Below, one piece after another: positions 14,666 through 36,993 of a stretch of DNA of 36,993 nt. This DNA is from a virus, in the IMG/VR virus record IMGVR_UViG_3300029258_002161, positions 1-36,993 of that record; one strand, 5' to 3'. Made by a program: the position numbers and the translations under genes. The notes beneath the pieces are model-generated. The model did no database searches. It was not told the origin of the DNA and saw only the letters and a list, made by a program, of their open reading frames with translations. The number at the start of each line of letters is the position of its first letter. The stretch's first letter is position 1.

Positions 14666-14670
14666 CAGTA

Positions 14671-14703: not shown

Positions 14704-14714
14704 AGGAGAGAGGG

Positions 14715-17390: not shown

Positions 17391-17412
17391 ACATTAGACA
17401 AGGAGGCCAAGA

Positions 17413-18351: not shown

Positions 18352-18363
18352 AGGGGGTGTGAT

Positions 18364-19339: not shown

Positions 19340-19359
19340 TATATCGGAGGAGGTAAACG

Positions 19360-19740
19360 ATGGCACAAGGAAAAGGCTGTTTGTACGGCAACTTGACGGC
19401 TGCGACGACCACGACCGGCGGCGATGCGCTCAACCTGGCGAACCCAGAGGGCGCTGATCTGCTCATCACGCGCTTTATCATCAATGTCACGACGCAGGCG
19501 ACGGGCGCGGCGACGGTGGACGCGGGTGTGGCCGCATCGCTGACGAGCAACGACGAGTTGCTCGACGGTGTAGACGTCGGCTCTGCCGCGATTCTGGTGG
19601 ACAACGTGGAGCAGTGTGTGGATACAGCCGTGGCTGCGGCGGTCGTGTTGTGGGGGTCCGCCGAGTACGTGACGGTGACGCCAAGCGCGACGCTGGCGGG
19701 GTTGGTGGGCACGTATTACATCGAGTATGTCCACGCATAG
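19360..19740 (+). CDS. Probable capsid decoration or head fibre protein (126 aa)
   Basis: GGAGGAGGT precedes the ATG by about 5 nt. The sequence is small, Thr/Ala-rich and beta-dominated (LITRFIINVTTQATGAATVD, YVTVTPSATL), suited to an outer-shell or head-surface protein. It sits between palindromes R5 and R6 in the head region. No named family is recognised. Confidence 0.6.
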   Translation: MAQGKGCLYGNLTAATTTTGGDALNLANPEGADLLITRFIINVTTQATGAATVDAGVAASLTSNDELLDGVDVGSAAILVDNVEQCVDTAVAAAVVLWGSAEYVTVTPSATLAGLVGTYYIEYVHA

Positions 19741-19743
19741 TTT

Positions 19744-19776
19744 GTAGGTTGGGTTAAGGAACGCAACCCAACCTAC
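19744..19776. repeat. REP-like palindrome R6
   Basis: A full 33-bp palindrome, reverse complement of R3 and R4, four bases after the upstream stop. The Shine-Dalgarno of the next gene (CGGAGGTG) follows directly. Confidence 0.9.
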
Positions 19777-19790
19777 ATCGGAGGTGAAGG

Positions 19791-20213
19791 ATGGCGGCGA
19801 CGGCGGCACAGATCGAACGACTGCGGAGGATGGTTGACGAGCCGGATGATACGACCTACGACGATGATGCTCTCACCGACTATATCGAGCGGTATCCATT
19901 GGTGGACGAACTCGGCGAGGAAGCCTACACCTGGGATACGTCGACGCAGCCGCCCACGCAGGAGGAGAACGACGATTGGATCGCTACCTACGATCTGAAC
20001 GCCGCCGCCGCCGACATCTGGGAGGAAAAGGCGGCGACCGTGGCGGAGGATTTCGATTTCTCTGCCGATGGAGGCCGTTACAGCCGGAGCCAGGCTTATG
20101 AGCATTATATGAAGATGGCGGCGCGCTACCGCAGCAAGCGGGCGATGGGGACGATTTCGGCGGTAAAGTGGCCGAAGGAGACCGGCGCGGATACGCGATG
20201 GGCGCAAGGCTAG
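19791..20213 (+). CDS. Head-tail connector (adaptor) protein
   Basis: The 140-residue helical protein has a typical connector order: an N-terminal IERLRRMVDEPDDTTYDDDAL motif (residues 7-27), a middle LNAAAADIWEEKA helix and a basic C-terminal segment with YYMKMAARYRSKR-like residues. It probably binds the portal to extend the head channel. The match is to the general pattern of gp6/gp15-type adaptors. Confidence 0.75.
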   Translation: MAATAAQIERLRRMVDEPDDTTYDDDALTDYIERYPLVDELGEEAYTWDTSTQPPTQEENDDWIATYDLNAAAADIWEEKAATVAEDFDFSADGGRYSRSQAYEHYMKMAARYRSKRAMGTISAVKWPKETGADTRWAQG

Positions 20214-20217
20214 AGGA

Positions 20218-20249
20218 TTAGTTGGGTTGAGGAACGAAACCCAACCTAC
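20218..20249. repeat. REP-like palindrome R7 (variant core)
   Basis: TTAGTTGGGTTGAGGAACGA with the arm AACCCAACCTAC. It has the same GAGGAACGAA core as R5 but in opposite orientation. It lies between the adaptor and the next head gene, whose Shine-Dalgarno AGGAGGA follows. Confidence 0.85.
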
Positions 20250-20266
20250 TCGTAGGAGGATTGACG

Positions 20267-20596
20267 ATGGCGACAGAGGCATTGACGCGACAGAGCGCGA
20301 ATCGGACGGGCGCGGAGGCGAATTTGCAGAGTGTGACGAGCGCGGATGGGTTCACCTTCCCGAACGATGGGCACACGCTGCTCTATGTGGAGAACGACGC
20401 GGGCGCGCTGGCGCTGGTGTTCACGATTCAAAAGACGCTCGATGGGCAGAGCGCGACGCGGACGGTGACGGTGACGGCGTCGGAGAATTGGTTCGTCGGG
20501 CCGTTCCAGACGGAGCTGTACAACGACGCGGACGACCTGGTGACGTGCACGCCAGACGCGGATCTGGCGAGCGGCGTGGCCGTGCTGAGTGTGTAG
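20267..20596 (+). CDS. Small beta-rich head-surface protein (109 aa)
   Basis: ATG 20267 lies 6 nt after AGGAGGA. The FPNDGHTLLYVENDAG block (about residues 31-46) and the later VTVTASENWFVGPF resemble a group of small phage head proteins of unknown exact role that I recall near capsid genes. Probably an immunoglobulin-like or decoration fold. Confidence 0.6.
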   Translation: MATEALTRQSANRTGAEANLQSVTSADGFTFPNDGHTLLYVENDAGALALVFTIQKTLDGQSATRTVTVTASENWFVGPFQTELYNDADDLVTCTPDADLASGVAVLSV

Positions 20597-20693
20597 GACG
20601 CGCCCAGAGAACGTTTGTGCTAAACTGTGGCAGAAATTGGCCTAAAATGGCAGGCTTCTGCGCTCTGGGGGCATTCTGGAGAGTGAATCGGGT

Positions 20694-21080
20694 ATGAGGG
20701 CATTCACGACGACCGAATTGAGCCGGATGCAGGCGACGCAGGAGGAGGCGATGCAGGATACGTGTCGCATCGGCGCGTACCGGAGCACAGAGGATGGGTA
20801 CAATAACCCGACGCGGGAGTACGTCTATGGCGAGCTGACCGAGTGCGGCGTGGAGCACGTCCAGGTCGACGAGGTGCAGGGAACGGGCGCGGTCCCGGCG
20901 ATTGACGCGCGGATCCGGCTGCCGATTGCGACGACGATCGACGAGCGTGACCGGGTGATGGTGACGCATCGTTACGGCGTGGAGATTACGGATCCGGCGA
21001 TTTACGAGATCGAGGGACCGGTCAAGTGCGGGCCGAGCGGTCTGGTGCTGGAGTGTAGAGAGGTAGGAGGAGAGATATGA
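20694..21080 (+). CDS. Probable head-closure protein (128 aa)
   Basis: The 128-residue protein follows the adaptor at the place of a stopper. After an N-terminal helix (SRMQATQEEAMQDTC) it is beta-rich with CRIGAYRSTEDGYNNP and ends in KCGPSGLVLECREV, the pattern of small phage head-closure proteins. Upstream 97 bp hold a long-range CCCAGAG/CTCTGGG inverted repeat but no clear promoter. Its stop overlaps the next start. Confidence 0.65.
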   Translation: MRAFTTTELSRMQATQEEAMQDTCRIGAYRSTEDGYNNPTREYVYGELTECGVEHVQVDEVQGTGAVPAIDARIRLPIATTIDERDRVMVTHRYGVEITDPAIYEIEGPVKCGPSGLVLECREVGGEI

Positions 21081-21691
21081 GCCTGAGCGCGACTTTTATC
21101 GGGGTAGACTCGTTTTCTGTGGTGGGCAATTATGCCGATTATCTGATCGCGGACCGGGCGGTGTTGTGCGACTGTGGCGCGGATGGGATCAAGAAGAGGA
21201 TCTGCGTCAGTTCGTCCTACGCGGCGGGCACGACGACGGTGACGCTGAAAACGGACGGGACGCGGAATCTGACGAGCAACCTGGCGACGATTGAGTGGAG
21301 CGTGGTTAAAGCGGGGAGCGAGGGGAATATTCCGCTCCACGATCACACGGACGACGATGATGGGGGAGTGATCACGCCGACGCCAGCCGCACACAAAGAT
21401 ACGCACGATCCGGAGGATGGCTCCGATCCGCTCGATTGCGCAGCAGCGGGGGAGATCGTTGGGGTGGCGGCGGCTGCTGAGGGCAGCGCGCACTCGTTCG
21501 CGCGGAGCGATCACACGCACCAGGTGCAGCACGGCATCGCGGACAATCACATCGTCACGGTAGACGGTTCGCCAAGCGATGATGAGTACGCCAGGTGGAC
21601 GGTGAATGGGTTGGAGGGGCGGACGACGGCGCAGGTTGCCAGCGATATTGGCGCGGTCACTGTCGCAGAGGCGATGGTTTACGGGATTTGA
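21077..21691 (+). CDS. Fibre-like protein with DHTH repeats (204 aa)
   Basis: ATGA overlap with the gene before. The first ~75 residues are beta-rich. The rest looks like a trimeric fibre shaft: LHDHTDDDDGG, HKDTHDPEDGSDPL and SFARSDHTHQ resemble metal-binding HxH knots seen in phage fibres. The end has a GLEGRTTAQVASDIGA motif common in tail-fibre tips. A receptor-contact or neck fibre role is inferred. Confidence 0.65.
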   Translation: MSLSATFIGVDSFSVVGNYADYLIADRAVLCDCGADGIKKRICVSSSYAAGTTTVTLKTDGTRNLTSNLATIEWSVVKAGSEGNIPLHDHTDDDDGGVITPTPAAHKDTHDPEDGSDPLDCAAAGEIVGVAAAAEGSAHSFARSDHTHQVQHGIADNHIVTVDGSPSDDEYARWTVNGLEGRTTAQVASDIGAVTVAEAMVYGI

Positions 21692-21699
21692 GGTGAATT

Positions 21700-22113
21700 A
21701 TGGCAAAAGTGTTTCGATTATCGGACGCGGTGGGAACAGACGACTGGAGTAAAATTCAGGTGTTGACTCTGCCGAGCAATGCTAAAGATGACACCCCCGT
21801 TACGTTCCACGATTCAGGTGGTAGCGACTATCAGGTTCCTGCCAATACCCTATTCATCAGCATCTCCGCATTGATGACAATTCCGTCAGGAGAAGATGGT
21901 CGTGTTGGAGAGTCAGATGCAGGGGATGGGGCGCTGACGAGGGAAGTGCTATATATCAAGGATGCAACGGGTGGTCAGCTTGAGATGTTTGGTGACGCAC
22001 AAATGATCGGGGTTTTTCGTGCTGGTAAGTACGTCACTGCGGAAAGCACACATAGCATCACCGGTATAGCATCGGGAGCGGTGCTTATTGGCGTTGAAGT
22101 CTCAACGGCGTAG
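21700..22113 (+). CDS. Virion-associated protein, tandem paralogue 1 (137 aa)
   Basis: AGGTG precedes the ATG. It shares LPSNAKDD, P(V/I)TFHD, DYQVPA and a GESxxGDGA block with the next gene, so the two arose by duplication. The fold is probably a beta-sandwich. Base composition is clearly lower in GC than the flanking genes, suggesting recent acquisition. A surface or fibre-associated role is inferred from neighbours. Confidence 0.65.
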   Translation: MAKVFRLSDAVGTDDWSKIQVLTLPSNAKDDTPVTFHDSGGSDYQVPANTLFISISALMTIPSGEDGRVGESDAGDGALTREVLYIKDATGGQLEMFGDAQMIGVFRAGKYVTAESTHSITGIASGAVLIGVEVSTA

Positions 22114-22121
22114 GAGGAAAA

Positions 22122-22556
22122 ATGACTCACGGGATAAGATTGCGGGGCAATGCGATAACAAACGCCGGCAGTGATTTGAAAATATTGGTGTTGCCCTCGA
22201 ATGCGAAGGACGACGTACCAATCACGTTTCACGATGAGGATGGAAACGACTACCAAGTTCCAGCCGACACTGTGTTTGTACCAATCCTCATTCGCCCTTG
22301 CGCAGAATTTACGGCTAATATAAATATACGAATAGGTGAATCTGCATCTGGTGACGGTGCCATTGCGACAGAGCGTGTCTATGTAGATTCGGATGCAATC
22401 AGCAACACCGCGCAATACCCGTATACATTGGAGGATCTGCCGTTTCTCTATTTTGCAGCCTCAACGTATATTACGGCAGAGACGACTAGCACAAATGTTG
22501 CGTACGAGTTGATCGCTGGATCGTTGATCGTGGGATTGGAGTTTTCTACCAGCTAG
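22122..22556 (+). CDS. Virion-associated protein, tandem paralogue 2 (144 aa)
   Basis: AGGAGG lies 5 nt before the ATG. It has the same core blocks as the gene just upstream, with diverged N-terminus and loops. The GC content is again low relative to the structural cassette. Both end in a V(G)(V/L)E(F/V)S strand. Function is unknown, with a probable role in host binding or decoration. Confidence 0.65.
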   Translation: MTHGIRLRGNAITNAGSDLKILVLPSNAKDDVPITFHDEDGNDYQVPADTVFVPILIRPCAEFTANINIRIGESASGDGAIATERVYVDSDAISNTAQYPYTLEDLPFLYFAASTYITAETTSTNVAYELIAGSLIVGLEFSTS

Positions 22557-24696: not shown

Positions 24697-25082
24697 TGCG
24701 CACGGTGAAGGTTACGCTCGGAGGGACGACGCACACCGTCCAGGAGTTGCGCAGCCGCGAAAACGCGGCCTGGCGGCAGGAGTTGGAGAGCCATTTCGAG
24801 GATTTGGCGCAGCTCCTGGACGACGCGCCGGGTCTGGACCTGACGGACGGCCAGGCATTGGCGGGGTTGGTGCGGTCGGTCTCGGGGAAGCTGTTGCGTA
24901 GCGTGGATGTGATTCGCGAGCTGGTGCTGGCCTACGCGCCCGATCTGGAGGGCGCGCTCGATGAGGCGTATGACAGCGAGATGCTCGACGCATTTACCAA
25001 GATCCTGGGGCTGGCGTACCCTTTTGGCTCGGTGCTGGAGAGCCTGCTCAAAGTGGCGGAGCTTGGCTCTCCAGGGGCATAG
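24696..25082 (+). CDS. Tail assembly chaperone (gpG-like)
   Basis: The 128-residue acidic helical protein begins at the tube stop (ATG overlapping TGA). Such genes before the tape measure encode chaperones that coat it before tube polymerisation. The downstream open frame in -1 phase suggests a longer frameshift product. Confidence 0.75.
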   Translation: MRTVKVTLGGTTHTVQELRSRENAAWRQELESHFEDLAQLLDDAPGLDLTDGQALAGLVRSVSGKLLRSVDVIRELVLAYAPDLEGALDEAYDSEMLDAFTKILGLAYPFGSVLESLLKVAELGSPGA

Positions 25083-25327
25083 ACCACGCGGAGCTGGCGC
25101 TGAGCCAGTGGGGGATCTGGGACGACGAGCTGGAGCCGGTGCTGCTGGCAGAGCTGGAGGCGGCCTATCTGCGCCGTCTCCATTTCGAGGCGCAAGTGAT
25201 GGCTTCGGCCTTCCTTGGGCCGGTGGCGGGCAGCGTGGGATCGAGCGGTGTGGTCGTGGGGGCCACCGGGAAGCGGTATCAACAGATCTCGCCGCAGGCG
25301 ATGCTGGCGCAAATAGCGGGGCGATGA
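25052..25327 (+). CDS. Frameshift extension of the tail chaperone (gpT-like)
   Basis: The -1 frame is open from at least 25052, across the gpG stop at 25080-25082, to 25327. It encodes SQWGIWDDELEPVLLAELE and an alpha-helical stretch, with no ribosome-binding site for its own early start. This is the lambda G/GT arrangement. I cannot fix the slip site; the AGGGGCA at 25073-25079 is a weak candidate. A GTG at 25139 could give a separate short protein. Confidence 0.6.
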   Translation, partial: SGGAWLSRGIDHAELALSQWGIWDDELEPVLLAELEAAYLRRLHFEAQVMASAFLGPVAGSVGSSGVVVGATGKRYQQISPQAMLAQIAGR

Positions 25328-25343
25328 TTCGGGGATAGATAGT

Positions 25344-26930
25344 ATGGCAATAACACTTGGCGACGCGATTGTCTATCTGAGGGGTAATTCGGAGGCGCTC
25401 GACCGCGCGCTGGGGCAGGCGGAAAAGCAGACACGGGGGACGGTCGGGCGTCTCGGCGGGGTGCTGAAAAAGGGGATCGGCGTGGCCGCGGCGGGCGCGG
25501 CCACGGCTGTCGTGGGCATCGGCGCGGCTGCGGTTGGGATGGGCGTCAAGGCGTTTTCCGAGTTCGAGACAACGAGAGCGACGTTGAATGAATTGCGGGC
25601 ATCGTTTACCGACACGGCAGATGATTGGATTAGGTGGTCGAAGCGGATGCAGCGCGAGACGACATTCAGCGACGAATCGTTTCAGAGCGCGGCCAGCGGG
25701 ATGAGGACGCTGGTGGAGAGCTATGGGATGGGTGAGGACCAGGTGCGCGGCCTGATCACGGCGAGCGCGGATCTGGCGGCGCTGAAAAAGATCGACCTGG
25801 CGGAGGCATCGGAACGGGTCCAGGCAGCGATGCGCGGCGAGGCGGAGAGCGCCGAGTTCCTGGGGCTGACGCTAAACGACACCTATATGAAGAATATGGC
25901 CTTTGATGGGTCGTTGTCGGAGACGTGGGAGACGCTATCGGATGCGGAAAAGGCACAATACAGGTATCAGGAAGCATTGAATCAGATGGCCTATGCTCAG
26001 GGCGAGGCGGGCAAGCAGGCGGCGACGTTTTCGGGGTCGGTGGCGCGGATTAAGAACGTCGCTCAAGATGCGTGGGCTACGGTGGGCGGGGCGTTGGCTC
26101 CGGTGTTGGATACTCTGGGGACAAATCTAGCGAATGACGTGATCCCGATCATCGAGACGGGCGCGGACGTGTTTCAACGGTTTACCAGCGGCCTCCAGGA
26201 GGGCAAAGAGCCAATCGACGCTTTCAGAGATTCAATTGAGGGCGTATTCCCACCTGAAACAGTCGCGCGTTTGGTTGCCTTTGCCGAACAGGTGAAACAA
26301 TGGGGTGAGCAATTCCGGGCGGGCTTTCGGCCCTTTCAGGAGCAGATCGCGCCTCGATTGCGTGAGTTTAGAGACGAGATCCAGCCGAAACTGGTCGAGC
26401 TGGGCGAGAAACTCAAAGAGGTGTGGGGGAAATTGACGGACGCGCTGGCGCCGCTGGCCGAAAAGCTGGGCATCAGCACGGAGGAGGGAGGCGGATTCGC
26501 CGAGTTTCTCGGCCAATTGGCGGGCCTGGCAGTGTGGAACACGCTCGATTTTTACTTAACCGCATTGATTGGCTTGATCGACCTATTCATCGCCGGGCTG
26601 GAAGGCATCGGTAACATCATCGACGCGACCGTGCAGGGGGTGGAGAAACTAACGGGCGTTTTTGATAGCTTGACGCAAAACATCGAATTGCCCGAATGGT
26701 TGCAGCCAGGCAGCGCGACGCCATTCGAGGAGGGGCTGCGTGGCATCGCGGACGCGATCAATCAGATGCCCAGCCTATCGGAGAAACTGAGCGCGTCGGG
26801 CCTGGGCGGTGCGGGCAGCGGGCAGAGCGTCACGGACAACCGGCAGAGCGTGACGATGTACGGCCCACAATTCACTGGCGTCCAGGACGCGGGCGGGTTA
26901 CTCGAGCAGCTCGCGGCGCTGGCGGCATAG
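25344..26930 (+). CDS. Tape measure protein
   Basis: The 528-residue protein has an Ala/Gly-rich membrane-type segment at about 45-70 (GIGVAAAGAATAVVGIGAAA). The TMP-like region has the blocks FSEFETTRATLNELRASFTD and MRTLVESYGMGEDQVRGLI, then coiled helices (FQEQIAPRLREF, KLVELGEKLKEVW) and a second hydrophobic stretch near 395-425. With about 1.5 A of tail per residue, the tail would be roughly 80 nm. No peptidoglycan hydrolase domain is apparent. It is short for the family. Confidence 0.88.
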   Translation: MAITLGDAIVYLRGNSEALDRALGQAEKQTRGTVGRLGGVLKKGIGVAAAGAATAVVGIGAAAVGMGVKAFSEFETTRATLNELRASFTDTADDWIRWSKRMQRETTFSDESFQSAASGMRTLVESYGMGEDQVRGLITASADLAALKKIDLAEASERVQAAMRGEAESAEFLGLTLNDTYMKNMAFDGSLSETWETLSDAEKAQYRYQEALNQMAYAQGEAGKQAATFSGSVARIKNVAQDAWATVGGALAPVLDTLGTNLANDVIPIIETGADVFQRFTSGLQEGKEPIDAFRDSIEGVFPPETVARLVAFAEQVKQWGEQFRAGFRPFQEQIAPRLREFRDEIQPKLVELGEKLKEVWGKLTDALAPLAEKLGISTEEGGGFAEFLGQLAGLAVWNTLDFYLTALIGLIDLFIAGLEGIGNIIDATVQGVEKLTGVFDSLTQNIELPEWLQPGSATPFEEGLRGIADAINQMPSLSEKLSASGLGGAGSGQSVTDNRQSVTMYGPQFTGVQDAGGLLEQLAALAA

Positions 26931-26937
26931 GAGGGGT

Positions 26938-29900
26938 ATGGCATTACGACCATTTGCGATTGACGGTCTCGTCATCAGCGAGGGGGTGGACTATTCCGAC
27001 GCGAGCGTCGTCTCGTTGCTGGTCGAGGCGACGGGGCTGGGCCAGGTGCAGCCGCAGTATGCCAGGCGGCACGGTCGGAGGCCGGTCATCTCTGGCGTGG
27101 AGCTGCCCGCGCGGCGCCTTTTCCTGGAGAGTTGGTTCGTCGACAATTACTGGAAGGCGAACAAGCGGCTGCTCTACCAGTACCTCAACGCAGAGCGGGG
27201 CGAGACGCGGCGGCTGCTGGCCGGGGATTCTGTCCCGCCTGGCCTGGCGATGCAGGATGGTCTCTTGGCGATGGGGCCGTGGGACGTCTATGTGGACGAC
27301 GACGCGGCCTGGCACGTGCGCGACTTGCTCCAGCCGGACGATGTGGAGGCGGATCTCAGCGGGGCGGTCCATTTCATTGGCACCGACCAGACCTCGGCGA
27401 CGGTGGTGGACGAGGCGACGATCAACTATCTCCACAACCCGGTCGCCGGTGGGAGCAGCGGGTACAACGACTATGGGACCGGCACGGTCTCGCGCACGTC
27501 GAGCTACGACCTGTACTCGGATTGCGACGAGTACGCTTATCAGATCGACTGCCTGGCTGAAAACGACGGCGGGCAATGGACGCTCGACACGCTCGCCAAT
27601 GAGATCCACGTCGTCTCTTTCTGGCGGCGGGACAGTGAGGCACTCACGCTCCAGGTATCGCTCGATGGGACGAACTGGCACACGGTAGCGCAGGGCCAGA
27701 GCAGTGGCCTGTGGACGCGCTACGAGGCGGAGATCCCCGCAGCGCAGGCGAACGGCTCGACGACGTTGACCATCCGCACGACGGGCGGGGCGTACACGGC
27801 GGAGCCGGGCGTCTGGACGACGTCGGACTCGGATGCCTGGTCGGATGACGCGGCGGACGCGGATGCCTGGACCTCGTTTGAATTTGCAGTGACGATCATC
27901 CTTGACGGCCTCCAGGTGGAGAAATCTTCGACTGTGAGCACGCTGGTCTGGGGCGGCCTGGCCGGGTATTCCTGGGAGGGGACGGCGCACAACAGCGCGA
28001 CCCAGCAGGATTGGCACGTGGACGCGGGCGACGAGTACGACGACCAGACGCGGGCCATCGTCATCGAGGAGGCGACGACGAACCTGGTCAAGAACCCGGT
28101 GGCGGGCGCGGCGGGGAATTTCGGGAATGTAGCGAGCGGCACGGTGGCGCGCTCGCAGGATGTGTATCTGTTCGACCAGCAGAACCTCTACAGCTTCAAA
28201 ATCACGACGACGGCGAGCGGCGACGGCGGCTCGTGGACAATAGCGGCGGCGGCGAACGCGATCCATTTCGTCACCTTCTGGCAGTACGGCCAGGCTCCGA
28301 ACGACATCCAGGTCTCGCTCGATAACTCGAACTGGCACGACGTGGCGGAGACGGTCGCGGATGGCGACTGGACGCGGTACGGCGCGCAGATTCCAGCGGC
28401 GCAGGCGAACGGCTCGACCACACTGTACATCAAACAGAACGGGGCCGGGGCGGGCAGTTTCTACGTGGACGGCCTCCAGGTCGAGCAGAAACTCTACCCG
28501 ACCTCGCTCTGTCACGGGGCGATGGGCGAGGAGTATGCCTGGGACAGCACGGAGCACGGGAGCAAATCGACGCGCACAGTGACAAAGGTGGACCTGAGCG
28601 ATGAGGTGACGTTGATTTCAGCCAACAGCTCGCTGACGTTTCACCTGGTCGTGCAGATGCCGTATGCCGCCGATGACGACTGGCCAGACGAGGCGATCTT
28701 GTGCGACGCGCGCGGGGCGAGCGACAACGCGCGGATCTATTTGGAGTATGAGGACAGCGACGACAAGTTCCACGTTTATATCAACGGCTCGGACCGGTTT
28801 CAATCAAGCGCGCAGACATTCAGCGCGGGCGATTGGTTGCATTTGACGTTGGTGGTGGATTTTGCTGGAGAAGCGCGATTGTACGTGGATGGCTCGCGGG
28901 ATGGTTGCACGAGTATCACGGGCCTGGACGCGCCCACACTGACGGACTGGATGCTGGGGAGTGATTACAACGGCGCAAACCAGGCGAACATCGCCATCGC
29001 CGAGTTCCTGGTGGCCGCTTGCGCACTCAACTGCTCGGAAGCGGCCTGGCTGTACGCACAGGATCCGTGGCGCGCTCGCTGGCTCGATGTACTGGCCGAG
29101 CATCCCCAGCCGAGGAGCGAGGGCGGGCGTCGGCTGGCCTTTGCGACGGTGACACCGCTCGACATCGACGGCGACATCCGCTGGCGCAGCCGGGACGGTG
29201 ATGTGGCATTCTGGCGCGTCCACGCAACAGGTGAGGATCTGCGGGTAACAGTGACAAGCGAGGATGAGGTGTACCCGGAGCTGCGCATCACGCCGACAGC
29301 GGCCAAAAGCGGCGGATTCGATTACAAGCGTTTCTCGCCGGTGGTGTGGAACAGTGACAGCAGCGCGGGCGCTCATCCGATCTGCATCGAGCCAGCCGAC
29401 CTGACCGGCAAGGCACAGGCGGATGGAGACGACGTGCGGGTGTACGTGGACGGCGTGGAAGTGGACCGCTGGCTGGGCGGCACGGTCCCCAGCGCGATGA
29501 AGATCTGGTGCTATATGGATTTCGAGCCAGCCGCAAGTGCGACGCTGGGCGTGGCCATTGGGTCGGGCGACACGATCACGACTATCACAGCGAGCACAAG
29601 TATCTCCGACTTTCCATCATCTGGGCTATTGTTCATTGATAGTGAGGTATTCATCTACACGGCCAAGAATTCGACGACCTCGACCTTTTCTGGCGTGACC
29701 CGGGCAGCTCGTGGCACGTCGGCGGCGGCGCACACGACGTCTGACACCATCTACTGGATACAGCACGACGTCTGGGTCTACTATGGCGATTCGACGTTGA
29801 GTGCGCCTGATGTGGATGATGATTATAAACCAGCGTTCGACCTCGACAACAGTGATAATGGCTCGTGGGATTACAACAATTTCGGTGAGGATGATGAGCT

Positions 29901-30657
29901 GCGTGGGATGCAGTGGGCGAAACAGGTTATTCAGTATGACTCGCGCCGCCCGAACTGGGATTTCTACACCGCCAATCACAAGACTGATGCCGATCCGTGG
30001 GAGGAAATTGGGATTTTTGAAGACACGTGGGAATACGGGGTGGGTTCATTCTGCGTCTATTCCCCATTGCCCATTTCTAATGTGAATTTTGCTAACGGCG
30101 AACGGTATACGTCATTTTCATCCGGTTGCGATATAGGATACGTGGAATCGAGCATTGATGGAAGTACGTGGACTACCGAGTACACAATCACGACCGTTAA
30201 TCCGACTACTTGGGAGAACTGGAGCTATAATAGCGCCATCACGTCGGGGACCCATTATGTCAGACTGCGAAACAGAAGCGTAAACTCTGCGGTTTCGCAG
30301 TGGCGGATAGAATGTGCTGATGTGACGCTGACGTTAGATTCGAGCTATACTCCAGACGTGACGGTCGGTGACGAGCAGAACAATTACCCACTTAATTGCA
30401 CGATCATCAATTCGACGACAGGAGAGGCCATTACGCTGGAAGTGAATATCGAGGTAGACACGGTATTGATCGTGAACACCGACACCAAGACGGTGAGCCT
30501 GGTGGACGGGACGAAACTCCAGTACGCACTGACGCCGGATAGCACGCGGCGGGACTGGCTGCGGCTCACGCCAGGCGTCAACGATCTCGACTTTGCCGAG
30601 ACGGGAGCGAACGAGCTAGAGATCGAAATTATATGGGATCGGAGGTATTTCGAGTGA
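26938..30657 (+). CDS. Giant distal-tail protein with inserted carbohydrate-binding-like domains
   Basis: The 1239 residues appear to be a Dit protein split by insertions. Residues 1-150 resemble the Dit N-terminus, and 1149-1239 the C-terminal half (NYPLNCTIINSTTGEAI, VNTDTKTVSLVDGT, LRLTPGVNDLDF, ending WDRRYFE). Between them are two tandem homologous modules (about 160-325 and 378-520; shared NPVAG, DGGxWT, IHxVxFW, SLDxxNWH and AEIPAAQANGSTTL-type blocks), a LamG/concanavalin-like module (about 560-715) and a further beta-rich part (about 760-1140). Ordinary Dit proteins are about 250-300 residues. The modules probably bind surface glycans of the host. Confidence 0.75.
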   Translation: MALRPFAIDGLVISEGVDYSDASVVSLLVEATGLGQVQPQYARRHGRRPVISGVELPARRLFLESWFVDNYWKANKRLLYQYLNAERGETRRLLAGDSVPPGLAMQDGLLAMGPWDVYVDDDAAWHVRDLLQPDDVEADLSGAVHFIGTDQTSATVVDEATINYLHNPVAGGSSGYNDYGTGTVSRTSSYDLYSDCDEYAYQIDCLAENDGGQWTLDTLANEIHVVSFWRRDSEALTLQVSLDGTNWHTVAQGQSSGLWTRYEAEIPAAQANGSTTLTIRTTGGAYTAEPGVWTTSDSDAWSDDAADADAWTSFEFAVTIILDGLQVEKSSTVSTLVWGGLAGYSWEGTAHNSATQQDWHVDAGDEYDDQTRAIVIEEATTNLVKNPVAGAAGNFGNVASGTVARSQDVYLFDQQNLYSFKITTTASGDGGSWTIAAAANAIHFVTFWQYGQAPNDIQVSLDNSNWHDVAETVADGDWTRYGAQIPAAQANGSTTLYIKQNGAGAGSFYVDGLQVEQKLYPTSLCHGAMGEEYAWDSTEHGSKSTRTVTKVDLSDEVTLISANSSLTFHLVVQMPYAADDDWPDEAILCDARGASDNARIYLEYEDSDDKFHVYINGSDRFQSSAQTFSAGDWLHLTLVVDFAGEARLYVDGSRDGCTSITGLDAPTLTDWMLGSDYNGANQANIAIAEFLVAACALNCSEAAWLYAQDPWRARWLDVLAEHPQPRSEGGRRLAFATVTPLDIDGDIRWRSRDGDVAFWRVHATGEDLRVTVTSEDEVYPELRITPTAAKSGGFDYKRFSPVVWNSDSSAGAHPICIEPADLTGKAQADGDDVRVYVDGVEVDRWLGGTVPSAMKIWCYMDFEPAASATLGVAIGSGDTITTITASTSISDFPSSGLLFIDSEVFIYTAKNSTTSTFSGVTRAARGTSAAAHTTSDTIYWIQHDVWVYYGDSTLSAPDVDDDYKPAFDLDNSDNGSWDYNNFGEDDELRGMQWAKQVIQYDSRRPNWDFYTANHKTDADPWEEIGIFEDTWEYGVGSFCVYSPLPISNVNFANGERYTSFSSGCDIGYVESSIDGSTWTTEYTITTVNPTTWENWSYNSAITSGTHYVRLRNRSVNSAVSQWRIECADVTLTLDSSYTPDVTVGDEQNNYPLNCTIINSTTGEAITLEVNIEVDTVLIVNTDTKTVSLVDGTKLQYALTPDSTRRDWLRLTPGVNDLDFAETGANELEIEIIWDRRYFE

Positions 30658-31679
30658 ACGACACGGCCATCGAGGCGATGGTATTCAGTTCAGGCGGATC
30701 GAAGCTCGACGATCTGAGTGTGGATATCCAGAGTTGTCTCTGGCGGTTGGGTCAGACCGGGCGGGCTACGTTCAATATTGCCTATGCTGACGACAAGGCG
30801 GCGGCGGAAAACATCCGGGCGGGCAACTATTTGCTGTTGCAATTTGGGAGTGGCCTGCCGGATTGGGGCGGCGTGATCGATTTTCCGCTCAGCCGCCGCC
30901 CGTATGGGCTGACGGCCGTGGCCTACGAAAGCGACCGGATGCTCGACTGGCGCATCTCTGGCGCAGACGTGAGTTATAGCAGTACAGCATCGGGGGCGAT
31001 TGCGCAAGCGCTCGTCGAGAGTGCAAAGGCGAGCTATCCGCTCGCCATCTCTATTGGCGACGTGTACGCGGGCGGCTCGAGGACGCAAGAATATCATTAC
31101 GATGGATTGCTCACAGAGATCCGCAGCCTGGCGACGGGTTACGACTATGCGGTTGTACCGTCGTATCAGGATGGGCGCCTTTCGTTCTATCTCCATTTTT
31201 ATGAGCGGCGGGGCGCGGACCGGCGCAACTCGGTCCATCTCGTCGAGGGCCACAACGTCGGCGAGGTCAATCTCGACGAACAGGGGCCGATTTACAACCG
31301 CATCATCGCCATAGGCAGCGGCGTGACGTGGGCGGATCGCCCGACCGTGATCTCGGAGGATCTGGATAGCAAATATCGGTACGGGCTGCGAGAGCAGGCG
31401 AAAATATATCCCAGTATTACCGACGAGACCACGCTCCAGGAGTTGGCGGACGCGCTGCTCGACGAGTGGAAAGAGCCGCGCGCGCGGGGCACACTGACAA
31501 ACGTATCGAACGAGGATCCGGCAACGTTCGATGAGTACCATGTCGGCGACATTGTGACGCTCCAGGCGTTCCTGGATGCGGGGGAGGATTGGGAGTTCAA
31601 CGGGCCGGTGCGCATTCTCTCGCGCGAGTGGACGCCAGCGGGCCATTGCACGCTGGAGGTAGAAGAGTGGCGAGATTGA
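30654..31679 (+). CDS. Tail hub / baseplate protein (Gp37-like)
   Basis: I choose GTG 30654, overlapping the previous TGA, behind GGAGG. The 341-residue protein starts beta-rich (DLSVDIQSCLWRLGQTGRATFNIAY), has DYAVVPSYQDGRLSFYLHFYERRG in the middle and an RGTLTNVS region near the end. The order agrees with ReqiPepy6 Gp37-type siphovirus tail proteins that form the hub below Dit. The family name is from pattern memory. Confidence 0.65.
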   Translation: MNDTAIEAMVFSSGGSKLDDLSVDIQSCLWRLGQTGRATFNIAYADDKAAAENIRAGNYLLLQFGSGLPDWGGVIDFPLSRRPYGLTAVAYESDRMLDWRISGADVSYSSTASGAIAQALVESAKASYPLAISIGDVYAGGSRTQEYHYDGLLTEIRSLATGYDYAVVPSYQDGRLSFYLHFYERRGADRRNSVHLVEGHNVGEVNLDEQGPIYNRIIAIGSGVTWADRPTVISEDLDSKYRYGLREQAKIYPSITDETTLQELADALLDEWKEPRARGTLTNVSNEDPATFDEYHVGDIVTLQAFLDAGEDWEFNGPVRILSREWTPAGHCTLEVEEWRD

Positions 31680-31897
31680 TTGGTCGCGATCATTACGTCA
31701 ACGATCCGCTCGACCGCATCGAGGAGCTGGAGGCGAAGGTAGCGAAACTGGAGCGGATCCTCGCGGGCCGGCTTGATACGCCGACCGAGGCGCTGGCGAT
31801 CATCGACGCGGGCAGCACTGGCGCGACCGAGCAGGGCTGGATCGAGGTCACGGTCGGCGACGTGACGGGTTATATTCGCATATTCGCGGCCACGTGA
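31667..31897 (+). CDS. Small coiled-coil tail-end protein (76 aa)
   Basis: GTG 31667 is 7 nt after GGAGG and overlaps the hub gene by 13 bases. A coiled coil (residues 14-33, LDRIEELEAKVAKLERILAG) is followed by a small beta domain (TEQGWIEVTVGDVTGYIRIF). It may trimerise as a short fibre or plug. It ends flush with the convergent integrase gene, with no gap for a terminator. Confidence 0.6.
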   Translation: MARLIGRDHYVNDPLDRIEELEAKVAKLERILAGRLDTPTEALAIIDAGSTGATEQGWIEVTVGDVTGYIRIFAAT

Positions 31898-32791
31898 TCA
31901 CAGCCGCCAATTGTCGGCGGGCGACGTGCGTTGGGCCTGTTTCTCCACATCCTCATCGGCCAGGGCGGTCAGATATTTCCGCGTCGTGGCTATGTCGTTG
32001 TGACCAAGCAAATGCTGGAGGCTCACCAGGTCCATCCCGTTGCGCAGATGTTGGATCGCGCCGGTGTGCCGGAAGGCGTGCGGGGTGGCCCTGACGCCAG
32101 CGCGCTTGGCCAGGCGGACGATGATATTGCGCAGCGAATAGCGGTTGAGCGGGTAGCCCTGCTTGGTCAGAAACAGGTGGTCATCGCGGACGCGGCTCGG
32201 TTCTGGCCGCTCGTCGCTGGCATAGAGCCACACGGCGGACTGAGCTTGGCGGCCCAGGTAGACGAAGCGCTCTTTTGATCGCTTTCCCAAAACGAGCGTC
32301 CGACCCGTTTTGAGATTCACGTCCGAGACCTGGACACGGCAGGTCTCGGATGCACGGGCGCAGGTATCCACCAAGAAGAGCACAATCGCTCGGTCACGGC
32401 GATGGTTCTGACAGCCAGACGTCGCACCCAGCAAAGCGTCGATGGTCCGCTTATCCAGCGCCTTTGGTTGGAGATCGGGCAGTTGGGGCGCAGGCACGGG
32501 GGCGGCTGGGTTGTGTCCCCTCGGGACCAGAGCGACGTCGACCTCTCCGAGCCAGCGGTACAGCGCCGAGATGATGGAGAGCTGGCGGCGCTTTGTAAAG
32601 GCGGACAGACCGCGCTCGTCGCTATGGCGGAGGTATTTGACGACGTCGGTAGTGGTGAGGTCGAGCACATCGCGGTCGCCATACCAGGCGACAAACTGCT
32701 CGAATTGGGTGCGGTCGATTTTGATGGTTTCGGGAGTACAGCGGGTGGCCTTGAAAAGCAGGTATCCGTTGACGGCTTGTAGCAATCTCAT
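31898..32791 (-). CDS. int: Phage integrase, tyrosine recombinase 2
   Basis: A 297-residue recombinase. Its ATG at 32791 is preceded by GGAG 11 nt away. The catalytic residues are Arg146 (ARASETC), Lys170 (LGKRSKER), His238-x-x-Arg241 (HAFRHT), His264 (LGHNDIATT) and Tyr273. Among three such enzymes it alone adjoins att-like DNA: a tRNA 5' half at 32883-32921 and repeated ATGTAGY motifs. I therefore take it as the enzyme that integrates the phage into a host tRNA-Val gene. It is closely related to recombinase 1 at 5352 but lacks its C-terminal extension. Confidence 0.93.
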   Translation of the reverse strand: MRLLQAVNGYLLFKATRCTPETIKIDRTQFEQFVAWYGDRDVLDLTTTDVVKYLRHSDERGLSAFTKRRQLSIISALYRWLGEVDVALVPRGHNPAAPVPAPQLPDLQPKALDKRTIDALLGATSGCQNHRRDRAIVLFLVDTCARASETCRVQVSDVNLKTGRTLVLGKRSKERFVYLGRQAQSAVWLYASDERPEPSRVRDDHLFLTKQGYPLNRYSLRNIIVRLAKRAGVRATPHAFRHTGAIQHLRNGMDLVSLQHLLGHNDIATTRKYLTALADEDVEKQAQRTSPADNWRL

Positions 32792-32882
32792 AATGTAGCG
32801 ATCTCCTTTTGTCTAGGAGTATGCTACATACCGTCTGGGGCGGGATGTTGTGATCAAAAGCACCTTAAAAAAACAATCAAAA

Positions 32883-32921
32883 ATGTGAGTGTAGCGCTCT
32901 GACCGTCTGAGCTACGCGCCC
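32883..32921 (-). other. 5' half of tRNA-Val(CAC), candidate att core
   Basis: Read leftward from 32921: a seven-base acceptor strand GGGCGCG, TA, a perfect four-pair D stem GCTC/GAGC around AGACGGTCA, then anticodon stem CTACA and loop CTCACAT with anticodon CAC. After the loop the sequence departs from a tRNA. It is therefore an identity segment for integration at the anticodon loop, not a functional tRNA by itself. Confidence 0.75.
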
Positions 32922-32956
32922 GTTTTGTCCACTACATCACGCTGTGGACCGTATGT

Positions 32957-32984
32957 AGTATACTCTAAACCCTAAAAATTGCAA
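32957..32984 (-). promoter_or_regulatory. Leftward promoter ahead of the tRNA fragment and integrase
   Basis: TTGCAA (32984 to 32979), a 16-bp spacer and TATACT (32962 to 32957) put +1 near 32950, 29 bases before the tRNA 5' end. On the circle it would transcribe the tRNA fragment and the integrase. In an integrated prophage it could instead drive the rebuilt tRNA gene. Confidence 0.55.
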
Positions 32985-33006
32985 CTTTCTCAGAATGGTT
33001 GTAGCA

Positions 33007-33483
33007 TCACTTCTTTCCTAGTTTCACTTTCCATTCGCGGAATTGTTGGCGTTTGGATCGTAGATCCTTGCGGGAGGAACCTAGCTTGATCATCTGATCA
33101 GCCATAGTGATGAACTGATCGCACACTCGGATAGCCTGATCATATCGCTTTTGCTTGCTGTAGATGATGCGAAGACGAGTGTAAGGATGGGAACCGTCAA
33201 ACACATCGGCTATCATAGACTCGTAGATTTTGATGGCCTTATCAAGTTTGCCAGCCTTTTCCAGTTGACTTGCACTTGCACTTCGTTTCGCGAAGTCGTT
33301 ATCAATTCGATTGGCTTCTGTGGTATAGGCTGCCATCGTTTCCGTTGGCATTTCCTGTGATATGGCTTGACGCAGCAGATAAGAACGCAGACCTAGAGGC
33401 TTGTTAGCGTAAGCACGCTTATGAGAAGACCACTTGGTTCTGCGTTGGGGTTTCTTGCGTTTCTTCCGTCCGAATATGTTCAA
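33007..33483 (-). CDS. TPR-like protein of the lysogeny operon (158 aa)
   Basis: I start at TTG 33483, behind AAGGA with a 6-nt gap; upstream frame overlaps the previous gene. Residues 1-40 are strongly basic (FGRKKRKKPQRRTKW). The central part reads as one or two tetratricopeptide-type helix pairs (LEKAGKLDKAIKIYESMI and IIYSKQKRYDQAIRVCDQFI). TPRs bind proteins, so it may modify the repressor or a host factor. It could serve superinfection exclusion together with the membrane protein next door. Confidence 0.65.
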   Translation of the reverse strand: MNIFGRKKRKKPQRRTKWSSHKRAYANKPLGLRSYLLRQAISQEMPTETMAAYTTEANRIDNDFAKRSASASQLEKAGKLDKAIKIYESMIADVFDGSHPYTRLRIIYSKQKRYDQAIRVCDQFITMADQMIKLGSSRKDLRSKRQQFREWKVKLGKK

Positions 33484-33500
33484 TCTTTTTCCTTGAGCAC

Positions 33501-33785
33501 CTATAACAACATTGCGAGGATGTAACCGACTCCCGCTATAGTACCTGAAAATGCTGCAAAGATGCCCAAGAGCATAAGTGGGCAACACGCACAACCCGAA
33601 CGGCCTTTGCGCGTGCTGACCGTGCCGTGTTTGGTGCGTACACTAGCGCTGACTCCCTTGCTGCTGATGTTCACGCCAGCCTTTCCACCAATTCGAGCGG
33701 AGGGCTTGGTTACTTTGACACCTTTGGAGGTGATGCGTAGTTTAGGCTTCCGAATACTGATTAACTTTTTCTTTCGACGTGCCAT
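33501..33785 (-). CDS. DUF4236-like small membrane protein (94 aa)
   Basis: Starts directly after the repressor stop. The N-terminal half has paired basic beta strands with ITSKGVKVTKPSARIGG and VNISSKGVSASVRTKHGTVS, the repeated SKxG pattern of DUF4236 proteins as I recall it. It is followed by CACC and a membrane helix (about 70-92). A prophage-encoded exclusion or envelope protein is plausible. Confidence 0.6.
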   Translation of the reverse strand: MARRKKKLISIRKPKLRITSKGVKVTKPSARIGGKAGVNISSKGVSASVRTKHGTVSTRKGRSGCACCPLMLLGIFAAFSGTIAGVGYILAMLL

Positions 33786-34160
33786 TTAGTCCTCGCTTTT
33801 TTTCTTGTTGACCATATACTCTGCTCGCTGATCATAGAGCGTTTGGACAATGAGACGGACAGTATCTCGGTCCTCTTTTTTGAGATATTGAAAATGATCT
33901 AGTAAGTCTTGTTTCTCTTTCTCAATGTCATTTCCAATGATGATGGGAGGCAAAATACCTACTAGTCGAAAGACGCGCTCAGGTGCAATACCAAAGGCGC
34001 GTGCTATCCCTACACACGTTTCTGGGCTTGGTTCTTTCTCTTGAGTGAGAATCATTGAGACGGTAGATGGGACAACATTTGCACGGCGGGCAAGTTCACT
34101 GTTACTCCATCCTCGTCTATTGAGTTCATCGTTTAGCCAGGTGACAAATTCATTTTTCAT
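33786..34160 (-). CDS. XRE-family repressor
   Basis: The 124-residue protein has an N-terminal helix-turn-helix (residues 19-40, SNSELARRANVVPSTVSMIL) and a helical, charged C-terminus. It is transcribed leftward, divergent to the early promoter at 34215, the standard place of a lysogeny repressor. No Shine-Dalgarno precedes ATG 34160; the -10 lies 7 bases upstream, so the mRNA should start at the AUG itself, as lambda cI does from PRM. It lacks an S24 LexA-like protease domain, so induction by self-cleavage is not expected. Confidence 0.85.
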   Translation of the reverse strand: MKNEFVTWLNDELNRRGWSNSELARRANVVPSTVSMILTQEKEPSPETCVGIARAFGIAPERVFRLVGILPPIIIGNDIEKEKQDLLDHFQYLKKEDRDTVRLIVQTLYDQRAEYMVNKKKSED

Positions 34161-34166
34161 AATGAT

Positions 34167-34195
34167 AGTATAGCATACTCGTTATTTTTTGAGGC
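34167..34195 (-). promoter_or_regulatory. Leaderless repressor promoter with overlapping palindrome
   Basis: TATACT (34172 to 34167) has a poor -35 (GCCTCA at 34195 to 34190) and a predicted +1 at 34160, the A of the repressor ATG. The dyad AGTAT-AGC-ATACT (34167-34179) covers the -10. A weak -35 suggests dependence on activation, as at lambda PRM. Confidence 0.55.
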
Positions 34196-34214
34196 GATAA
34201 AATCTATTTCCCTA

Positions 34215-34243
34215 TTGACAACGGTTGCAACTTGGTGTATAAT
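34215..34243 (+). promoter_or_regulatory. Early rightward promoter
   Basis: TTGACA (34215-34220), a 17-bp spacer and TATAAT (34238-34243) are full consensus. The spacer contains the perfect palindrome GTTGCAAC (34224-34231). It should drive the early operon from 34289 through the origin junction and on to the primase. A nine-base string TTGCAACTT is shared with the promoter at 32979. Confidence 0.8.
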
Positions 34244-34288
34244 GTCACTATGGAACAAGAAATTTTTTCCACGGAAACAGGAGGCAAA

Positions 34289-34531
34289 ATGAACACCTTG
34301 ACGAGAACAAAAAGAGAACGAGTGATCGGACAGTGGCAGGAGCACATCAACGCAATGAGAAACTACCTGGGCGATTTTGAGGCGGCGTTACCCGACATCA
34401 CCACAGATGAGGAGTTTATGTCGGCGTACCAGGAGCTGTCGCGCCACTGTGGTGATGTGCTAGACGATATCTGCCTCCCCAGCGGCACGATTGACGATCT
34501 GCGGACGGCGGTGACTGGCAGTCCAGCATAG
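34289..34531 (+). CDS. First early gene, hypothetical helical protein (80 aa)
   Basis: ATG 34289 has AGGAGG just upstream; an earlier in-frame ATG at 34250 has none. The 80 residues are helical with a basic start (MNTLTRTKRERVIGQWQEHI) and an acidic middle. No family is seen. As the first gene of the early operon it is a candidate regulator (Cro-like in position only; no HTH motif is apparent). Confidence 0.65.
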   Translation: MNTLTRTKRERVIGQWQEHINAMRNYLGDFEAALPDITTDEEFMSAYQELSRHCGDVLDDICLPSGTIDDLRTAVTGSPA

Positions 34532-34540
34532 GAGGATGAG

Positions 34541-34819
34541 ATGAGCAAAACACAGTACAGAACGAACGGTATAGCGATGCTCCCGGAGGATTGGGCCATC
34601 GTGAACAGCATCGCCGAGGAGAACGGCCAGAGCCGGTCGGCGGCGATGCGAGAGATCACGCGCCAGCATCCGGTGGCGTCGCGGTTGATTTTGCTGGGGC
34701 AGGCATATCTACTATCCCTCCTCACGCCGCAGGAGGCGTTGGAGCGGTTGGCAGACGTGGCGCTCGATGTACCGCTGCCTATTGCGCTCACGGAAAAGGC
34801 CGAGGCGGCGCTGAAATGA
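34541..34819 (+). CDS. Ribbon-helix-helix-like early protein (92 aa)
   Basis: AGGAGG precedes the ATG. The N-terminus TQYRTNGIAMLPEDWAIVNSIAEENG reads as a beta strand followed by two helices in the MetJ/Arc pattern (residues 4-40, with SRSAAMREI as second helix). The C-terminal part is helical. DNA binding is expected; it could act as early transcription regulator. Confidence 0.6.
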   Translation: MSKTQYRTNGIAMLPEDWAIVNSIAEENGQSRSAAMREITRQHPVASRLILLGQAYLLSLLTPQEALERLADVALDVPLPIALTEKAEAALK

Positions 34820-34920
34820 TGACGGAGCTGGGTAGGCCGAGGGCATCGGCGGCGAAGTGTGGTGGGCGTGAACGGGGGTACACGCCGGTTGAGGCCGCCT
34901 GGAGCTGCGACCACTGCTGA
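34819..34920 (+). CDS. Possible very small Cys-containing protein (33 aa)
   Basis: ATG 34819 overlaps the stop of the preceding gene. The 33 residues end with KCGGRERGYTPVEAAW then SCDHC, giving three cysteines and a His that could bind zinc. No good ribosome-binding site is seen, so it depends on coupling. It may not be real. Confidence 0.35.
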   Translation: MTELGRPRASAAKCGGRERGYTPVEAAWSCDHC

Positions 34921-35059
34921 AGGCTCCCAAGGGGTTCGACTCCCCGCCCGGCTATTTTTAATGTGCGCTCCCGCAGGTTTTGGGCCTGCGGGAGAGGAGG
35001 CAAGTCACGGGGGCTACCGTTATCGCCTCGATTCTATTATACCACAGGGCGGTGGCGAG
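34921..35059 (+). other. Non-coding structured stretch in the early operon
   Basis: It holds a T-arm-like GGGGTTCGACTCCCC (34931-34945) followed by an acceptor-like CCGGCTA, then a perfect 10-bp hairpin CTCCCGCAGG/CCTGCGGGAG with a 7-base loop (34968-34994) that lacks a T-run. No tRNA can be folded upstream of the T-arm. The hairpin may process or attenuate the transcript before the membrane-protein gene. Confidence 0.5.
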
Positions 35060-35524
35060 ATGGAGATTTTGGCAGATTGGTCGCTGATTGGTCGTTGTTT
35101 TCTGGCGTTGTTGTGGGGGGGATTGTGGGCGCTTTTTTTGCAGTATCATCGAATGGGGCTTTTTCTGGTCAAGGAGCGGACGTGGATCACGGTCGTCGTG
35201 GGGGTGGGGGTGGATCTGTTGATCGCGTTTGGCGGCGATTGGTGGACGTGCGCGGCGGTGATCGTGTTCAGTTCTATCGGCATCATCGCCCGGTCGTTGA
35301 TCAACGAGCAACGGCCCCGATTGCCGAGCGGGTACAAGGTGCTGTGGGGTCTCGAGGACGCGATGGCCTGCTCGCTGGAGTTGGTCGGTATCCTGGAGGG
35401 CCTGGTCGAGGGGGAGCAGGACGGCAAGCGGGTGGTGGGAATGTCGCAGGCGCTGAGGTTGGCGCATAGGCTCAACGAGTTGGCGCGGGATGCACGCCGG
35501 GGTGAGTATCAAAGGAGGAAGTAA
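35060..35524 (+). CDS. Early membrane protein with three hydrophobic helices
   Basis: The 154-residue protein has three membrane segments at about 8-28, 41-58 and 60-80, and a helical, basic soluble tail (about 95-154). GGTGG is a weak ribosome-binding site upstream of ATG 35060. An upstream -10-like TATTATACC lies at about 35036 but I see no good -35. A role in superinfection exclusion or membrane anchoring of replication is possible but inferred. Confidence 0.65.
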   Translation: MEILADWSLIGRCFLALLWGGLWALFLQYHRMGLFLVKERTWITVVVGVGVDLLIAFGGDWWTCAAVIVFSSIGIIARSLINEQRPRLPSGYKVLWGLEDAMACSLELVGILEGLVEGEQDGKRVVGMSQALRLAHRLNELARDARRGEYQRRK

Positions 35525-35525
35525 G

Positions 35526-36422
35526 GTGGATATTTTGGGGCGATTTGAGCAGTTTGTGAGTCGGCGCTGTGCGCGGGGGAATCCCTCGCCGCACACGGTG
35601 CGCAGTTATCGGACGCAGGCGCGGATGTGGTTGGGGTGGTGCGCCGGTCGCGGCCTGGATCCGCTGGTGGCGACGGAGGAGGACGTAGTGAGTTACCGGG
35701 CCGAGTTGGTGGGGCGGTACGCTGAGGCGACGGTGGCGCTCAAGCTCCAGGTGGTCGCCACGCTGTACGAGGCGCTGGGGGTGGAGCCGAATCCAGCCGA
35801 GAAGGTGAGGCCGCCACGGGATGGGACACCGCCAGAGGAGCGCATCGAGTATCTGACGGTCGACCAGGTGCGGGCGATCTTTGCGGCGGTCGGGGCGCTG
35901 GAGGATCCGGTGCGGCGCGCGCGGGACCGGGCGATGGTGGGGTTGCTCGTCACGTTCGGCCTGCGGGCGCAGGAGTTGCGCGGGCTGGAGTTGTGCGACG
36001 TGATTCTGCTCAAGCGCAAGCCGGGCCGGTTGGTGATCCGGTCCGGGAAGGGGCGGAAGCGTCGCACGTTGCATTTGACGGTCGAGACGGCGGCGATGGT
36101 GCGGGATTGGCTGGCGGTGCGGCCGGTCGGTGGGCGGTCGCTGTTCGTGGGGCTGACGGGGCGGGGGGCGCTATCGGACAGTGGATTGCGAAAGGTGGTC
36201 AAGGCCCATTTGCGGGCGGCGGGCGTGGACGTGGATGGGCAGGCGTGTCACGTTTTCCGGCACACGGCGATCACGCTCGCGGTCGCCTTTGGCGCCGCGC
36301 GGGCGCACGTGCAGCGGATGGCGGGCCACGCGGACCCGCGCACGACGGATCTGTACGTGCATCTGGTGGAGGCGGAGCGGGAGAATCCTGCTCTGATAGT
36401 TGAGGCGGCTTTGGCTGCCTGA
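35526..36422 (+). CDS. Tyrosine recombinase 3 (XerC/D-like)
   Basis: The start is GTG 35526 behind AAAGGAGG. The 298-residue enzyme has a core-binding domain (1-95) and complete catalytic residues: Arg147 (GLRAQELRG), Lys175 (SGKGRKRR), His242-x-x-Arg245 (HVFRHT), His268 (AGHADPRTT) and Tyr277. It is not closely similar to the other two. Placed in the early operon without att-like DNA beside it, it might resolve genome multimers or act in recombination-dependent replication. Confidence 0.92.
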   Translation: MDILGRFEQFVSRRCARGNPSPHTVRSYRTQARMWLGWCAGRGLDPLVATEEDVVSYRAELVGRYAEATVALKLQVVATLYEALGVEPNPAEKVRPPRDGTPPEERIEYLTVDQVRAIFAAVGALEDPVRRARDRAMVGLLVTFGLRAQELRGLELCDVILLKRKPGRLVIRSGKGRKRRTLHLTVETAAMVRDWLAVRPVGGRSLFVGLTGRGALSDSGLRKVVKAHLRAAGVDVDGQACHVFRHTAITLAVAFGAARAHVQRMAGHADPRTTDLYVHLVEAERENPALIVEAALAA

Positions 36423-36431
36423 AGGAAGCAA

Positions 36432-36993
36432 ATGAGCGTAAGAAAAGGAATGCTAAGGCGACATTATAAAAGAATATGCAAACCAGGGGACTTGAGAACG
36501 CTTAACAAGATTTTCTTTCAGAATCAAGTTTCCTTTCCTCCTATATGTTGTGACATTACTGGTGCCACAAGATGGTTTTGTGAGGAAAGTGGAAAAGACT
36601 ATTGGTATTATGAGAAAGATTTCCCGAATTGTGTTTCACCGTGGCCTGTGGCTTGGTATGAATCTTCATTAGCTAATGGAATCTCTTTTCCTGGTCATCC
36701 AGAGTACAATATTCCACCAAAAACTAGCAGGGCAGATGGGTTTCTGGTATTCACCGAAAAAATTCCTGATGATATGAGACAAGAAGCATTTGACTTGGAT
36801 TTATTAGTGCACTTTTATCATCACCTTGTGATAGAAGTACCTCATAAAGACGAATTGCTCTTGGCGCGTAATAGAATCATCCAAGAATATCAAAAGGTTG
36901 GAAGGACTCCAAAATGGATAAGCTTAATATTCAAATCAGTTGAATCTTGGAATAAACTCTTAACTAATTCTGAAGTCATATTTTGCTATTTAG
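36432..36993 (+). CDS. N-terminal part of the origin-spanning protein
   Basis: AAGGAAG precedes ATG 36432. 187 codons are open to the end of the window, with one base left over that completes a GAA codon with bases 1-2. Residues include CCDITGATRWFCEESGKD, a Pro/Trp-rich SPWPVAWYES and PPKTSRADGFLVFTE. The AT-rich composition equals that of bases 1-320, supporting one gene. It lies behind recombinase 3. No named domain is recognised. Confidence 0.75.
   Translation, partial: MSVRKGMLRRHYKRICKPGDLRTLNKIFFQNQVSFPPICCDITGATRWFCEESGKDYWYYEKDFPNCVSPWPVAWYESSLANGISFPGHPEYNIPPKTSRADGFLVFTEKIPDDMRQEAFDLDLLVHFYHHLVIEVPHKDELLLARNRIIQEYQKVGRTPKWISLIFKSVESWNKLLTNSEVIFCYL

Follow-up and report, generated by a model that had tools for sequence, protein, structure and literature searches.

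Homologues of the gene that is central to this paper, members of the protein family phrog_20769 and its kin, are found in Gordonia phage BritBrat (gp54), Mycobacterium phage Mutaforma13 (gp50) and Corynebacterium phage phi16 (ORF44). These three are actinophages of 55–61 kb, compared to ~37 kb for the phage described here, and in all of them the gene lies downstream of the immunity region, as it does in our phage. On the level of gene order, two IMG/VR records can be compared: IMGVR_UViG_3300010411_000008 (G002; 32,819 bp), in which the integrase, repressor, primase, terminase and tail genes are ordered as in our phage, and IMGVR_UViG_3300033153_009133 (G004; 37,573 bp), in which the integrase, repressor, primase and terminase genes are so ordered. 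Unlike our record, both are cut elsewhere on the map and lack the gene in question, and only a handful of 50 tested proteins of our phage find a match in them.

The DNA analyzed here, referred to as the window, is the complete IMG/VR record IMGVR_UViG_3300029258_002161 with a length of 36,993 bases. A further record, IMGVR_UViG_3300017987_000488 (L004; 18,006 bp), is 100% identical to window positions 4348–22353 and is therefore the same virus, yet it is a partial record that stops short of the place where the window's two ends would meet (the seam). For positions 25000–36993 no near relative was found among phage records. Based on our analysis, the record very probably represents the circular or circularly permuted, whole or nearly whole, map of a temperate tailed phage.

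Reading frame across the joined ends

An ORF that begins with the ATG at 36432 on the plus strand stays open to base 36992 and leaves the right end of the window. At the left end, the plus-strand frame 3–323 is open from the first base; frames 1 and 2 contain stops. By joining the ends, base 36993 and bases 1–2 form one split codon, and the joined frame of 187 codons, the split codon and 106 codons encodes 294 amino acids with no internal stop, just as the earlier note had read it. The features at the seam are:

36432–36993, plus strand, right piece of the seam gene: N-terminal 187 codons and the first base of the split codon; phrog_20769-like (ORF; family HMM 10.0 bits)
1–323, plus strand, left piece of the seam gene: last two bases of the split codon, C-terminal 106 codons and stop (phrog_20769, E 1.5e-22; family HMM 105.0 bits)
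320–547, plus strand, small ORF from the ORF list, whose ATG overlaps the seam-gene stop at 321–323 (ATGA)

Both pieces are AT-rich, with a GC content of 37.0% (right) and 44.6% (left) in a window of 60.1% GC, but given the difference between the two the composition cannot be called uniform, as had been claimed. Similarly, the frame is indeed open at both edges, but the left piece is not without a start of its own, as an internal GTG at position 15 allows a 102-amino-acid ORF to be read by itself.

An open frame can also arise by chance. We therefore built an empirical null from 30 complete phage contig sequences, in which the right end of each was cross-joined to the left end of every other (n = 870). 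An ORF of at least 60 amino acids, with at least 30 codons on each side of the join, was found in 343 of the 870 joins; for ORFs of at least 294 amino acids the count was 119, about 1 in 7. The one-in-three odds quoted previously concern the frame alone. Since so many unrelated joins give an ORF of this length, the open frame alone is weak evidence for a circle. Comparison of the window ends gave no terminal repeat or overlap, and no shared words or inverted repeats that count were seen between the right and left ends. These two results, the missing common repeat and the frequency of equally long chance ORFs, are what would be expected if the window were a linear fragment of a longer genome, with ends that are in frame by chance and are not neighbours. 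We consider such a fragment highly improbable, because the two pieces complement each other within one family and because the genes flanking the seam are adjacent in all three informative relatives, which are 32.8–39.0 kb in size; both points are described below.

Family of the seam gene

The left piece matches the phrog_20769 profile only at positions 223–316 of 318, which makes it a C-terminal fragment, the last third of the family protein, and it carries the RGHF (VRGHF) and YWW motifs of the family's conserved C-terminal domain. According to this profile ~220 residues are absent upstream of the left piece, and the right piece provides 187. When taken alone, the right piece, which would supply the family's N-terminal domain of about 200 residues, has no match in PHROGs at E 1 and reaches only E 0.89 with Mutaforma13 gp50. 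In a search of the phage collection with the joined protein, BritBrat gp54 (321 amino acids) covers residues 38–288 with 25% identity and E 3e-12, in an alignment that passes through the seam; a homologue aligned across the junction is what had been suggested as a check, and it was found. Viral contigs were also scanned by pattern for proteins close to the joined one, which gave five matches, none of them confirmed.

A search with BritBrat gp54, Mutaforma13 gp50 and the joined protein, aligned with one another, gave 19 viral and 5 genomic loci, 24 in total. A family HMM of 307 profile positions was built from 20 of these, excluding the window as well as L054, L063, L062 and L049, which are duplicates, near-duplicates or fragments. 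The left piece scores 105.0 bits against this HMM, the right piece 10.0 bits (E 0.016 in 629 sequences) and the joined protein 113.9 bits, while 3.9 bits is the next highest score among the 326 ORF pieces of the window and 4.6 bits the highest among 300 shuffles. The two matches do not overlap: the right piece aligns to positions 50–99, in the N-terminal part, and the left piece to 204–305, so that ~100 residues of the right piece remain for positions 100–203, which is a fitting length. In the joined protein, 119 residues separate the P(Y/F)xxxWxE motif from the invariant NV; this falls within the range of 98–182 (upper median 125) seen in 16 relatives with the motif pattern, counted after the removal of two duplicates. 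Taken by itself, the membership of the right piece in phrog_20769, as judged from these scores, is weak; the seam gene as a whole is a predicted member of this uncharacterised phage family.

The known kin of the seam gene come from actinophages and actinobacterial genomes, and among 14 control genomes the phrog_20769 profile found a match in one (Methanosarcina acetivorans). The AT-rich composition of the gene in a 60% GC genome, its absence from the three nearest relatives of the window and its actinobacterial and actinophage kin suggest that it was gained by transfer. A structure model of one relative (L067) is of low confidence, with a mean pLDDT of 60.8. It has no significant match in the PDB, and among viral structures two unnamed matches fall below E 0.001 with a low TM-score; because of this, a function cannot be read from the model.

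Gene content

Between the two ends the window carries the hallmark set of a tailed phage, namely primase, integrases, holin, peptidase, terminase large subunit (TerL), portal, head, tape measure, tail and repressor genes. This agrees with the earlier description of a complete phage gene set, with the terminase small subunit (TerS) weakly matched (E 0.005). The main features are:

1367–4486, plus strand, DNA primase-like gene, left synteny marker (phrog_6444, E 2.6e-34; PF01807, E 4.4e-27)
5352–6443, plus strand, tyrosine integrase 1 (profile matches, recombinase motifs)
11131–12669, plus strand, TerL, zero point of the circular map (phrog_38, E 2.3e-101)
12006–14060, plus strand, frame with the portal protein, match from residue 232 (phrog_104, E 8.6e-74)
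17413–18351, plus strand, major head protein (phrog_10, E 7.9e-36)
25344–26930, plus strand, tape measure protein (phrog_991, E 2.6e-17)
31898–32791, minus strand, tyrosine integrase 2 (PF00589, E 1e-31)
33786–34160, minus strand, HTH repressor-like gene (phrog_8, E 5.8e-08)
35490–36422, plus strand, tyrosine integrase 3, right synteny marker, 9 bp upstream of the seam gene (phrog_1, E 8.4e-38; PF00589, E 1.4e-21)

With its three integrases and a repressor the phage is marked as temperate, and one could ask whether the record is a prophage that was cut from a host contig at predicted boundaries. We find this scarcely credible, since such boundaries would be expected at att sites or host genes and not in the middle of a gene whose halves lie at opposite ends.

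That a phage of 37 kb has three tyrosine recombinase genes, each of which keeps the HxxR and GH...Y motifs, is an observation in its own right; integrases 1 and 2 are 46% identical to each other. Two tRNA-like fragments were also detected, at 32837–32921 (minus strand; tRNA, 19.6 bits) and at 34865–34948 (plus strand; tRNA-Sec, 17.6 bits), both with scores below the Rfam gathering score. One adjoins integrase 2 and the other is upstream of integrase 3, and they are candidate attP cores, which would fit the previous placement of attP inside the window. We assign a rather low probability to a wider proposal, in which a complete circular phage with three intact-looking recombinases, two of them beside tRNA-like fragments, could use tRNA sites of different kinds for its integration, the AT-rich seam gene being a recent actinophage import that its own relatives lack.

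Repeats are found elsewhere in the window. A 29-nt palindrome-like element, GTAGGTTGGGTTAAGGAACGCAACCCAAC, occurs in both orientations at about seven places within 10160–20250, and its exact 26-base form is in no viral contig besides the identical L004. A direct repeat of ~500 bp (6985–7496 and 14194–14680) is 78% identical between its copies, which are 7.2 kb apart.

Gene order in relatives

A TerL search gave 43 viral loci, and gene order was read in six long records. Three of these, G002, G004 and G008, are long and have a TerL that is at least 60% identical to that of the window (66–67% for G002 and G004, 66–68% for all three); the others, G010, G012 and G013, have only TerL in common with the window and are uninformative on order. 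In all three informative relatives the genes that flank the seam (repressor/integrase, then primase) are adjacent on unbroken sequence. The order of genes, with distances in kb from the TerL start for the joined window, is:

Joined window: tail 15.8, integrase 2 (minus) 20.8, repressor (minus) 22.7, integrase 3 (plus) 24.4, seam 25.9, primase (plus) 27.2, TerS 36.1
G002: tail, integrase (minus), repressor (minus), integrase (plus), primase (plus), TerS
G004: integrase (minus), repressor (minus), primase (plus), TerS
G008: tape measure, tail, repressor (minus), integrase (plus), primase (plus), TerS

The corresponding circles would measure 37.0 kb (window), 32.8 kb (G002), 37.6 kb (G004) and 39.0 kb (G008). 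Exact terminal repeats are present in G002 (99 bp) and G004 (47 bp) and not in G008. The CheckV authors trace direct terminal repeats with certain fixed lengths, 99 bp being one of them, to the k-mers of assemblers working on circular templates (PMC8116208). From these repeats and the gene order it follows that the relatives are circular in the assembler-repeat sense and that the window ends are neighbours on a common map. The window itself has no terminal overlap, whereas two of the three relatives have exact repeats, and this counts against a circle.

The seam gene was not found in the records of 13 relatives when the joined protein was used as query, nor in G002, G004 and G008 by a PHROG profile search. 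Because it is absent from these three, synteny tells us that the window ends are neighbours and not that they touch; for the same reason, contact between the ends has to be read from the seam protein alone.

Another option is that the ends are the physical termini of packaged linear DNA, with a fixed cos-like terminus lying within the gene, which would account for the lack of a terminal repeat. A fixed end should recur among relatives, yet the cut falls at a different point of the map in each of the four records (25.9 kb downstream of the TerL start in the window, 28.5 kb in G002, 27.5 kb in G004 and 2.8 kb in G008), and the seam, which interrupts a reading frame, precedes the terminase by 11 kb. 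Such a terminus is therefore extremely improbable.

A circle, in which frame continuity, the complementary halves of one family, and the gene order and terminal repeats of relatives are brought together, is well supported at the level of sequence comparison. The most fitting course of events is that a circular map was opened at an arbitrary point within an early gene, one that has the lysogeny module (repressor and integrases) before it and the replication module (primase) after it. In the sample the DNA would have been circular, circularly permuted or concatemeric, and the assembly would have put out a linear contig that was left without the usual terminal overlap. Since this overlap is missing, the record was not recognised as closed by end repeats.

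Is the seam exact to the base?

In all 24 relatives the invariant NV is directly preceded by [NTH][CS][RK]. The joined protein reads YLE-NV at this site, where YLE comes from the right end and the split codon, so the motif is absent exactly at the seam, and it is also there that the alignment to the family HMM leaves three profile positions empty. Moreover, the last seven bases of the window (36987–36993) recur in the same frame at 9–15, and these are the only two plus-strand occurrences in the window; when the first 30 bases were shuffled 20,000 times, the same 7-mer turned up in 87 of the shuffles. Together with the missing assembler overlap, these observations fit a real circle with an inexact seam, in which a short stretch, probably of whole codons, would be missing or repeated and the true genome slightly longer or shorter. 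This is a refinement of the circular reading and is compatible with it.

Yet the reading frame is intact, and the N-terminal half is divergent throughout, with 3 of 11 well conserved family columns kept before the seam and 23 of 34 after it, so that simple drift could account for the missing motif. In the structure model of the relative L067, which is of low confidence, the end of a predicted long helix coincides with the end of the right piece, which would also argue against an inexact seam. Scans of viral contigs, which may omit the window's own record, found neither the exact seam, nor the seam with a variable gap, nor either of the ends. In our view, a seam that closes exactly is about as likely as one with a small loss or repeat: a few bases at the seam may have been lost or duplicated. 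Of the earlier claim of a full circular or circularly permuted genome of 36,993 bp, the circle is thus borne out by homology and synteny, while the exact length is not supported, given the broken motif and the scans that gave no second contig across the seam, and 36,993 bp is the approximate genome length.

Significance

A record without an end overlap escapes the terminal-repeat flag for completeness, though it is probably a whole genome. Comparing both ends with one protein family, together with gene order across the seam, can rescue such unflagged genomes. Biologically, the window phage is an ordinary temperate tailed phage of ~37 kb, and it adds one more temperate phage genome; the finding is useful for correcting the status of the record.
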